64,000 nucleotides of DNA from Haloterrigena sp. KLK7 (GCF_037914945.1 NZ_CP149787.1:310001-374000), one strand, 5' to 3'; counted from the first letter of the stretch, positions 52,753 to 63,481 are shown. A program made the numbers and translations. Notes: generated by a model not told the origin, from the sequence alone.

Positions 52753-54150
52753 ATGACTACGACATTGAGCGACACGAAGAACCGAGCGGACGAGCGGCAG
52801 AGCGAGTACGCATTTCAGTCTGACAACGAGGGCGCGACCCAGGAACACGCCGACGAACAGTCCGGCCAAGCGGCGACGATCTGCGTCGTCGGCCTCGGCT
52901 ACGTCGGCCTCCCACTCGCGGTCGGGTTCGCGCGGTCGAACTACCGCGTCATCGGCTACGATGTCGACGAGTCGACGGTCGAGCGGCTGCAATCCGGCGT
53001 CGACACGACCGGCGACCTCTCGGACGAGGCGGTCCAGGACGACGACATCTCCTATACGAGCGACGCCAGCCAGATCGGCGACGCAGATTACGTTATCATC
53101 GCCGTCCCGACGCCCATCGACGAGGACGATCGGCCAGACCTGAGCTATGTCGAAAGCGCCGCCGCCACCGTCGGTTCGAAGATGAAACCCGGGACGACGG
53201 TGATCCTCGAGTCGACCGTCTACCCGGGGACGACCCGGGAGGTCCTCGTTCCCGCCCTCGAGGAAGCCTCCGATCTGACCGCGGGCGACGGATTCTTCGT
53301 CGGCTACTCGCCGGAGCGCGCGACGCCCGGCGACGAGGAACACGGTCTCGCGGACGTCGTCAAGGTCGTCGGCGCTCAAGACGAGAAGGTGCTCGAGGAC
53401 GTGGCGGCCCTCTACGAATCGGTCGTCGACGCGGGCGTCCACCGCGCGCCGTCGATCGAGGTCGCCGAGGCCAGTAAGGTCGTCGAGAACACCCAGCGCG
53501 ACCTCAACATCGCCTTCGTCAACGAGCTCTCGATGGCGCTCGAACGGATGGACGTCGACACGCAGGCGGTCCTCGAGGCCGCGGGCACGAAGTGGAACTT
53601 CCACGACTACCAGCCGGGACTGGTCGGCGGCCACTGCATTCCGGTCGACCCGTACTTCCTGGCTCACCGCTCGGCCCGTGAGGGGTTCGAGCCCGAACTC
53701 GTGCGCACGAGCCGGTCCGTCAACGAGTCGGTACCCGACCACATCGCCGATCTGACGATCAAGGCGCTGAACAGCTGTCACAAGACGCTCCGGGAGAGCC
53801 GCGTGCTCGTTCTGGGGCTGTCGTACAAACCGGGCGTCGGCGACATTCGGAGTTCGAAGGTCGCAGACGTCGTCGATCGGCTCGCGGAGTTCGACATCGA
53901 CGTCGCCGGGTTCGATCCGTTCGCGGACGACGACGCGGTCCGAAACGCCTTCGATCTGGACGTCCAAGAGACGCTCTCGTTCGATGGGTTCGATGCCGTC
54001 GTGGTCGCGACGCCACACTCGGAGTTCGAGCAACTCGACCTCGAGGCAGTGGCCTCCGAACTCGCGGCCGACCCGGCGCTGGTCGACGTGACGGGAACCC
54101 TCGACGAAGACACGGCCTGCGAAGCGGGGTTCGTCTACCGACGGTTATGA
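52753..54150 (+). CDS. Nucleotide-sugar 6-dehydrogenase (UDP-GlcNAc/ManNAc dehydrogenase type)
   Basis: The 465-residue enzyme oxidises the C6 hydroxyl of an NDP-sugar twice to give a uronic acid. After a 40-residue acidic extension comes the NAD loop TICVVGLGYVGLPLAVGFAR. It then shows YVIIAVPTPIDEDDRPDLSY, VILESTVYPGTTREVLVPAL, VGYSPERATPGDEEH, IEVAEASKVVENTQRDLNIA and the catalytic cysteine Cys295 in GLVGGHCIPVDPYFLAHRS. The C-terminal domain has VLVLGLSYKPGVGDIRSSKV. The GHCIPVDPYFL form is nearer the WecC/WbpA group acting on UDP-HexNAc than UDP-glucose dehydrogenase. It is the first gene of a tight four-gene operon; the next start overlaps its stop (ATGA). Confidence 0.93.
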   Translation: MTTTLSDTKNRADERQSEYAFQSDNEGATQEHADEQSGQAATICVVGLGYVGLPLAVGFARSNYRVIGYDVDESTVERLQSGVDTTGDLSDEAVQDDDISYTSDASQIGDADYVIIAVPTPIDEDDRPDLSYVESAAATVGSKMKPGTTVILESTVYPGTTREVLVPALEEASDLTAGDGFFVGYSPERATPGDEEHGLADVVKVVGAQDEKVLEDVAALYESVVDAGVHRAPSIEVAEASKVVENTQRDLNIAFVNELSMALERMDVDTQAVLEAAGTKWNFHDYQPGLVGGHCIPVDPYFLAHRSAREGFEPELVRTSRSVNESVPDHIADLTIKALNSCHKTLRESRVLVLGLSYKPGVGDIRSSKVADVVDRLAEFDIDVAGFDPFADDDAVRNAFDLDVQETLSFDGFDAVVVATPHSEFEQLDLEAVASELAADPALVDVTGTLDEDTACEAGFVYRRL

Positions 54151-61777: not shown

Positions 61778-63481
61778 TCAAATCGCTGCGAACTCCGGCG
61801 GGGCGAGCCACGGCAGCGACGCCTCGGAGGACGCGGTCCAGCAGTCGAGCCACGTCCGGAGATCGACGAGCCGCAACTTGTGTCTGACCGGCAGGTCGTG
61901 GACGTGCTCGAGGTCATCTAGGTATCGCCGGTCGAAATCGTAGCGGTCGAACAGCGTCCGGCGGTCGGGCCACGGCGGCTGAAACGACTCGAGGAACGGG
62001 GTCTTCCGCCGAACGAAGCGCTCGACCTCGTTGAGCAGCGTCTCGTCGTGTGGACGGTCCGGCGGCCTGTACCGCAAGATCTCGTCGTCGACCCGCGTAC
62101 AGGCCTCGAGGAATGTCTCCGTCGTGCGGTGTTCCGGCGGCGTCCGGAGGTGCCAGTCGAGCAGTTCGCGGTCGACCGCGGGAAACGACGTCACGAACTG
62201 ATCGGCCAAATGTGCGTGAAACGGCATCGAGGGCTGGTTGGAAATACCGACGCAGGTGAGCGCGTTCTGTACAGTGTCCGCACGGGACGACCGCGCGTCG
62301 AGCTCGTCGGCGATCGCGTCCCTGACGAACGACTCCGGATCGACGCCGAACGACGTCCGTTCGGCGAGGTCGCGACTGGCGTCGCGGCTGTAGCCGAAGG
62401 TCTCGAGCAACTCCTCGACGGGATCGGGATCGGGATCGAGTCTCCCGGTCGGGATCCGCTTGTCGAGGACGTCGACGGTCTGCTCTGCGGTGAAGTGACC
62501 CCGGAGGAACGTATCACAGAGCAGGCCGTGAAACATCGTGTCGACGTCCATCTCGTCGGTGTAGCCGGCGTGGTGGATGTGCAGCGATTCCTTGATACCC
62601 TGCGAGTAGCGCACCTTCGACTCGTCGGGGCGGAGATATCGCTCGTCCGGCGGAAACGCCGTGTGACTCGCGCCGTACTGTTCGGCGAGGCGACTCGCGA
62701 CCTGTACTTCCTGTGCGTCCGGATCGCCGACGGTGAAACTGCGCTCGATTCCGGGAATCCCCGCGAGGAGGACCCGCGAGTCGTAGCCCGCCGACAGGAG
62801 AACGCCCTTGGTCCCGGACAGCGTCGACCGCCGCCGAAACGCCCGCTCGAGGCGGTCTGCGAGCTCGGCGACGTAATCGAACGACTCCGGGCGGTAGACG
62901 AACCGCTCGAGCGAGTCGATGGCGTCGGCCCGGAGTAGGCTGTCGATCGGCAGTCGGCTGAGTTCCGTGACGGCGGTTTTCTCGCCGAGGGCAACGCCGA
63001 GGTGGAGGAACTCGAGGACGCCGTCCCGATCGATCGTCGGCTCCGGAACCGTCCGTCCGACCTCGGCGGCGTCGGTCCCGAAGACGCGCGTCCCGGGCTC
63101 GTCGGTGTAGAAACACTCGCGGGATCGGGCCGGATCCGTCGCCACGAACGCGTCGTCCGCACCGACGTCGATGACGGCCAGATACGAGCCGTTGAGCGCG
63201 TCCAGGGCGTCGCGGCCCGCCGTCTCGTAGCGTTCGAGCAGCCAGCGCGCGGCGTTGGACTCCTCCGACGACTCGTCGTTGGGGACGTACGCTTCGCCCC
63301 AGACGACACACCGGGCGTCGCCGTCCGCGTAGCTGGCGGTCCAGCCGGGCGCACCGAGCGCGTCGTCTCTGATACCGACGGTGACGGACGGTCCCGTCAG
63401 TACCTGATCGAATTCGTCGCTCGCCCTGTATCGCTCGAACGTCTCTCTGTCGCCGAATACGCCGAAGAGTTCCCTATTCAT
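61778..63481 (-). CDS. Asparagine-synthase-like amidotransferase lacking the glutaminase cysteine
   Basis: The 567-residue protein begins MNRELFGVFGDRETFERYRA and has an N-terminal Ntn-like domain (ALNGSYLAVIDVGADDAFVA, TDPARSRECFYTDEPGTRVF). It lacks the Cys2 that starts active class B glutamine amidotransferases. The synthetase domain has a PP-loop TKGVLLSAGYDSRVLLAGIP (SAGYDS at 230-235, ATP pyrophosphatase type) and a helical part with KVRYSQGIKESLHIHHAGYT. It should adenylate a carboxylate and amidate it, using free ammonia or a separate amide donor. In bacterial O-antigen loci such proteins (WbpS type) turn uronic acids into uronamides. With a nucleotide-sugar dehydrogenase 8 kb away, that role fits, but it is inference. 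Confidence 0.82.
   Translation of the reverse strand: MNRELFGVFGDRETFERYRASDEFDQVLTGPSVTVGIRDDALGAPGWTASYADGDARCVVWGEAYVPNDESSEESNAARWLLERYETAGRDALDALNGSYLAVIDVGADDAFVATDPARSRECFYTDEPGTRVFGTDAAEVGRTVPEPTIDRDGVLEFLHLGVALGEKTAVTELSRLPIDSLLRADAIDSLERFVYRPESFDYVAELADRLERAFRRRSTLSGTKGVLLSAGYDSRVLLAGIPGIERSFTVGDPDAQEVQVASRLAEQYGASHTAFPPDERYLRPDESKVRYSQGIKESLHIHHAGYTDEMDVDTMFHGLLCDTFLRGHFTAEQTVDVLDKRIPTGRLDPDPDPVEELLETFGYSRDASRDLAERTSFGVDPESFVRDAIADELDARSSRADTVQNALTCVGISNQPSMPFHAHLADQFVTSFPAVDRELLDWHLRTPPEHRTTETFLEACTRVDDEILRYRPPDRPHDETLLNEVERFVRRKTPFLESFQPPWPDRRTLFDRYDFDRRYLDDLEHVHDLPVRHKLRLVDLRTWLDCWTASSEASLPWLAPPEFAAI

Follow-up and report, generated by a model that had tools for sequence, protein, structure and literature searches.

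AsnB-type proteins make uronamides in bacteria, where WbpS and WbqG belong to the family TIGR03108 (PMC7468200). In P. aeruginosa O6, E. coli O121 and P. gingivalis (PGN_1234), a protein of this type is encoded in a uronic-acid glycan cluster, and amidation of the carboxyl group is its proposed role. Haloarchaeal exopolysaccharides (EPS) with GlcNAcA and GlcA2,3NAc are known (PMC3191746), and one or the other is found in the acidic EPS of Haloferax mediterranei and H. denitrificans. The AglM/AglF pathway, which provides uronic acid for the N-glycan of Haloferax volcanii, also combines a haloarchaeal nucleotide-sugar dehydrogenase with glycosyltransferases. The literature searched contained no haloarchaeal uronamide, and our searches on haloarchaeal asparagine synthase and glycans returned no description of the locus presented here.

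We analyzed a stretch of 64,000 nt (the window) from Haloterrigena sp. KLK7 (GCF_037914945.1 NZ_CP149787.1:310001-374000), centering on positions 52753-63481, where a first-pass annotation had proposed a uronamide pathway. The closest named relative in our scan is Haloterrigena salina (87% at asnL). As in the bacterial clusters, an AsnB-type protein, here called AsnL, is found in a uronic-acid glycan locus, and carboxyl amidation can be proposed for it. However, AsnL does not match TIGR03108 (eps_aminotran_1), with only TIGR01536 appearing up to an E-value of 0.01, and it is extremely divergent in sequence, lacks the glutaminase cysteine and has a diverged synthetase site. The claim that it is of the O-antigen amidating type is therefore not supported, and membership in the WbpS family was rejected. 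Since membership fails at TIGR03108, AsnL may work like a uronamide synthase but should not be called one. Compared with the AglM/AglF pathway, the dehydrogenase (Ugd) reaches 188 of 670 bits on the AglM model and is likely of the HexNAc type, and no counterpart of asnL was found for that pathway in the literature searched. The proposed product of the locus would share GlcNAcA or GlcA2,3NAc with the acidic EPS. However, free acids are reported for H. mediterranei and H. denitrificans, and neither species is among the named asnL loci of a listing limited to 80.

Organization of the locus

Four genes on the + strand form a tight operon at 52753-58199, overlapping by 4, 4 and 11 bases. The first, ugd (52753-54150, +), encodes a nucleotide-sugar 6-dehydrogenase (TIGR03026, 390.5 bits, cut-off 189.8) with all three UDPG_MGDP_dh domains (PF03721, PF00984, PF03720). 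It is followed by gt354 (54147-55256, +), encoding a DUF354/GT-B-like protein (PF04007, 48 bits), and by a gene for a GT4-family glycosyltransferase (55253-56212, +; PF00534, PF13439). The ATGA overlaps of ugd with gt354 at 54147, and of gt354 with the GT4 gene at 55253, can both be read directly in the sequence. The last gene (56202-58199, +) encodes a membrane protein of 665 residues that has no Pfam match. Its AF2 model (m30a97e4ce900), of modest confidence (pLDDT 66), has a GT-C fold in which an OST/ArnT-like core is preceded by extra N-terminal helices; residues ~127-660 align with AglB, eukaryotic OST and ArnT at Z 20-23, and the label GT-C-like is therefore appropriate. Neither the profile of this protein nor gt354 found a match among PDB sequences.

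The asnL gene (61778-63481, -) encodes 567 amino acids and lies on the opposite strand, 3.6 kb from the operon. The genes in between encode a DUF1616 membrane protein (59084-60082, -; PF07760, 276 bits), a DUF7344 winged-helix protein that is likely a regulator (60473-61081, +; PF24035, 105 bits), and a DUF7344-like protein (61127-61690, -; PF24035, 28 bits). Strand and intervening genes rule out asnL as an operon member. The first-pass annotation had described a dehydrogenase, two glycosyltransferase-like proteins, a GT-C-like protein and an asparagine-synthase-like protein joined in a tight operon. All five are real and lie where it placed them, and the operon holds for 52753-58199 but not for the synthetase.

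On its other side the operon is preceded by a gene for a DUF7343 winged-helix membrane protein, likely a local regulator (51737-52390, -; PF24034), and by glmS (49347-51152, -), encoding glutamine-fructose-6-phosphate transaminase (TIGR01135, 728 bits). Both positions are conserved. Following asnL, a gene starts at 63720 (63720-64000, +; PF01522) and runs past the window end (L010:720-2060); its product is a polysaccharide deacetylase that has a lipoprotein-like signal, and the gene adjoins asnL in Natrialbaceae. Farther out are genes for an AstE/M14-like hydrolase, which is secreted, and for an ATPgrasp_ST protein, together with two GT2 genes and those for a flippase and a phosphodiesterase.

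The arrangement is not particular to this genome. When the locus proteins were compared by tblastn with 32 stretches of ~20 kb from family genomes, glmS, the DUF7343 gene, ugd, gt354, the GT4, GT-C, DUF1616 and DUF7344 genes, asnL and the deacetylase gene appeared as one conserved block. Often an AstE/M14-like hydrolase and an ATPgrasp_ST protein are next, then GT2s, a flippase, a beta-helix protein and a phosphodiesterase. The position of a GT2 gene whose product has membrane helices varies, as some genomes have it next to the flippase gene and others between ugd and gt354. The recurrence of the same block across many genera is more than chance would give, and the conserved locus is larger than 52753-63481, with glmS at one side and export and GT2 genes past the window end.

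Several other features were observed. The ~880 bases between the GT-C and DUF1616 genes (58200-59083) contain no convincing gene, and an Rfam scan of 42000-64000 in the window gave no match. An IS605 OrfB/TnpB gene at 42784-44082 (-) is split over two reading frames (HTH 43705-44082, catalytic part 42784-43689) and thus looks broken. Elsewhere in the genome, a further homologue of ugd (44%) lies close to one of the other copies of glmS (G000:C1:3148190-3153520), and the two probably belong to another glycan locus. The hydrolase (L010 2395-3585, -), AstE/AspA-M14-like and secreted, with a long acidic C-terminal repeat, and the ATPgrasp_ST protein (L010 3743-4918, -) occur sporadically beside asnL, in 28 and 12 of 77 loci, respectively, and suggest possible amide or peptide chemistry.

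Fold and conserved residues of AsnL

Sequence similarity between AsnL and described proteins is faint, reaching 22.7 bits for Pfam Asn_synthase (PF00733, cut-off 21) and 38 bits for TIGR01536 (cut-off 267). Neither the sequence of AsnL nor its profile retrieved a solved structure at an E-value better than 0.08, so that a comparison of folds was needed. The AF2 model (pLDDT 78, pTM 0.80) has the two-domain fold of an Ntn-glutaminase and an AsnB synthetase, and matches the hydroxyamidotransferase TsnB9, E. coli AsnB, carbapenam synthetase and beta-lactam synthetase over its full length (Z 18-20, ~400 residues).

The N terminus is a conserved ELFG with no cysteine before it in 35 of 35 aligned relatives. 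The nucleophile of the glutaminase, Cys1, is therefore gone, and glutamine cannot be the direct nitrogen donor. In contrast, the pyrophosphate loop is kept as S-A/G-G-Y-D-S-R at residues 230-236 (SxGxDSR), and Ser230, Gly232, Asp234, Ser235, Arg236 and Asp323 do not vary among the 35 relatives, whose identities go as low as 50% (profile A1). AsnL shares with E. coli AsnB the fold (Z 19), this loop and the equivalent of Asp351, which is D323 where the GEGxDE motif of AsnB aligns to HGLLCDT. However, in addition to Cys1, AsnL has lost Asn74 (Trp) and Glu348 (Leu). At the position of Lys449 no lysine is aligned; MAFFT places the stretch RPPDRPHD there, and the hhalign alignment ends before that region. 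On these residues AsnL is best called a putative ligase. It is under purifying selection, with a dN/dS of 0.18 against a congener (one pair, Nei-Gojobori).

Beta-lactam and carbapenam synthetases share with AsnL the full-length fold (Z 18-19), a glutaminase-like domain without Cys1 and a kept pyrophosphate loop. However, these enzymes cyclize a single small substrate, whereas the genomic context of asnL is glycan synthesis. A second divergent asparagine-synthetase-like protein (~640 aa, SGGSDSR loop), a tandem paralogue with 24-26% identity to AsnL, is encoded directly before asnL in at least seven named loci (at ~8.0-9.9 kb in L121, L122, L123, L127, L129, L131 and L135; 7261-9186 in L070). 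It also lacks a cysteine at the aligned position, and a homologue is found on contig C2 of the genome (G000, L003).

Linkage of asnL with ugd and glmS

We searched 391 Halobacteria genomes for asnL (profile A1, E<=1e-30) and for close ugd orthologues (E<=1e-130). The former was found in 121 genomes, the latter in 131 and both in 120 (Fisher p ~1e-86, a value that ignores phylogeny and uses a ugd threshold chosen to separate orthologues). The two genes are within 15 kb of each other in 109 of the 116 genomes with listed positions, including 43 of 49 outside the family of the window, and the linkage is kept across rearranged loci. A few genomes have them far apart (198 kb in G122, 1.8 Mb in G275, 1.4 Mb in G394). 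Some NDP-sugar dehydrogenase is present in 124 of 125 family genomes, which makes co-occurrence with any dehydrogenase uninformative; the argument rests on the ugd orthologues and on how near they are to asnL. The synthetase might have occurred without uronic-acid dehydrogenases in most genomes, and this is not what we found: the tie is strict, and the data support a haloarchaeal locus dedicated to a uronic-acid glycan. Eleven genomes carry ugd without asnL, one of them (L174) with a weak asnL-like match of 27%, and ugd still adjoins a GT2 gene there, mostly with gt354 as well. As the reverse is almost never seen, asnL looks like an add-on to the ugd pathway, an optional modification of its product.

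Comparison with equivalog models points to HexNAcA as the likely product of Ugd, by conversion of UDP-GlcNAc to UDP-GlcNAcA. TviB, which acts on UDP-GlcNAc, ranks first (NF011729, 349.5 bits, cut-off 592), then the ManNAc dehydrogenase (250 bits), and AglM, which acts on UDP-glucose, is far lower (NF041297, 187.6 bits, cut-off 670). All three scores are below cut-off, and the shortfall on AglM led us to reject a glucuronic acid pathway of that type. The best solved relatives are ManNAcA, Cap5O and GalNAcA dehydrogenases.

The genome has three copies of glmS. Among 39 loci that are more divergent, 20 have asnL immediately behind glmS on the same strand, at 8-155 bp, as in Haloferax, Halobellus, Halogranum, Halalkalicoccus, Halorussus, Halovivax, Halobacterium bonnevillei, MAGs of Halococcaceae and others; glmU and glmM are nearby in several. 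In a phylogenetic tree these asnL-adjacent GlmS proteins and the in-locus GlmS of Natrialbaceae, including that of the window, form one well supported group apart from seven of the eight other GlmS proteins sampled. However, the eighth (L166), which is not known to be linked to asnL, is inside the group, and loci that lack asnL can likewise have glmS together with ugd (L177, L179), so that hexosamine supply explains the presence of glmS. For these reasons we have not adopted ammonia channeled by GlmS as the default reading, and a hand-over from GlmS to AsnL would be speculation.

Proposed pathway and alternatives

We propose that the product of the locus is a glycan, either of the cell surface or secreted, with N-acetylhexosaminuronic acid among its residues. 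GlmS, with GlmM and GlmU (encoded in a cluster with glmS in Haloferax), would feed UDP-GlcNAc, and Ugd would oxidize C6 to give UDP-HexNAcA. The gt354, GT4 and GT2 enzymes would then build HexNAcA onto a lipid carrier, the flippase would export the product, and the GT-C protein would transfer the sugar or oligosaccharide outside the cell. AsnL may act in the cytosol as an ATP-dependent ligase, activating a carboxylate at its pyrophosphate loop and converting it to an amide; the C6 carboxyl of HexNAcA is the most likely target. The nitrogen would come not from glutamine itself but from ammonia, either free or produced by a partner, or from a different amine. What the analysis shows directly is the gene content, the folds, the conservation, the linkage and the loss of Cys1, whereas the substrate, the amide product, the nitrogen donor and the order of steps are inferred. 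Assignment as an amidating ligase is based on the co-occurrence and proximity of asnL and ugd, the genomes with ugd alone, the fold shared with AsnB and the beta-lactam and carbapenam synthetases, the loop with the Asp351 equivalent, purifying selection and the adjacency to glmS. The haloarchaeal EPS with N-acetylated uronic acids and the bacterial uronamide enzymes of the AsnB type add to it. On this evidence we tentatively favor, at somewhat short of even chances, a surface glycan with HexNAcA residues that AsnL, working independently of glutamine, amidates at the carboxyl group. Uronamide formation is plausible as one of several products that the evidence allows, and a primary uronamide specifically is doubtful. 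Several observations count against amidated HexNAcA, among them the missing TIGR03108 match, the differences from AsnB at Glu348 and in the Lys449 region, and the absence of a haloarchaeal uronamide from the literature searched. In addition, Haloferax gibbonsii ATCC 33959 carries ugd-glmS-asnL (L154), and the published EPS of this strain is neutral, so that either the product is not that EPS or it was not expressed.

Beta-lactam synthetase, carbapenam synthetase and the lasso cyclases, which have the same fold and also lack the cysteine, use amines other than glutamine-derived ammonia. AsnL could accordingly couple the uronic acid to an amine other than ammonia, such as an amino acid, or cross-link it with an amino sugar, and the product would be a uronoyl-amide conjugate. 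Precedents would be the threonine-amidated ManNAcA of methanococcal glycans and the glycine bridge in the walls of Halococcus, and the secreted hydrolase and ATPgrasp_ST protein would fit such chemistry. However, these two proteins are missing from many asnL loci and the amine pocket has no residue-level support, and we consider a conjugate rather unlikely. A literature search on methanogen AglU gave no match. AsnL could instead act on an unrelated small carboxylate or nucleotide-sugar precursor and travel with ugd merely by sharing a glycan island. The direct glmS-asnL adjacency, the asnL-linked GlmS clade and the genomes with asnL and ugd far apart are in favor of this, but glmS is also beside ugd where asnL is absent and the asnL-ugd linkage survives rearrangement, and we regard it as unlikely.

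The walls of Natronococcus consist of glycosylated polyglutamine (PMC4243693), and Natronococcus species carry the locus (L093, L097, L100, L103, L110). A poly-gamma-glutamate-type polymer whose glutamates are amidated by AsnL, with the uronic acid genes making the attached glycan, is thus conceivable, and a PGA_cap (CapA-like) gene is near asnL in six loci outside Natrialbaceae (L133, L136, L137, L139, L143, L151). However, neither PGA_cap nor a polyglutamate ligase was seen in the locus of the window, and most genera with asnL are not known for such walls, which leaves this reading very unlikely. The poor conservation of the glutaminase residues, Glu348 and the Lys449 region relative to AsnB could also mean that AsnL retains the fold as a non-catalytic regulator or scaffold. 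Given the invariant loop residues and Asp323, together with the low dN/dS, a non-catalytic role is very unlikely.

Amidation of HexNAcA by AsnL remains our preferred reading. We are quite doubtful of its broader form, in which Halobacteria would mask the carboxyl of HexNAcA through a Cys-less, glutamine-independent ligase of the AsnB fold from a lineage separate from bacterial WbpS; a dedicated GlmS could supply the ammonia, or an amino acid could be attached instead. Little is known about the genes for haloarchaeal exopolysaccharides (PMC9943897). The ugd-asnL pair is found in about a third of the Halobacteria genomes sampled, so that an assignment of the locus would put a name to a surface glycan that is widespread. 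Should AsnL cap uronic acids, amidation would lower surface charge and provide enzymatic control of it in very high salt, and genomes with ugd alone and with both genes would be natural pairs for testing such control.
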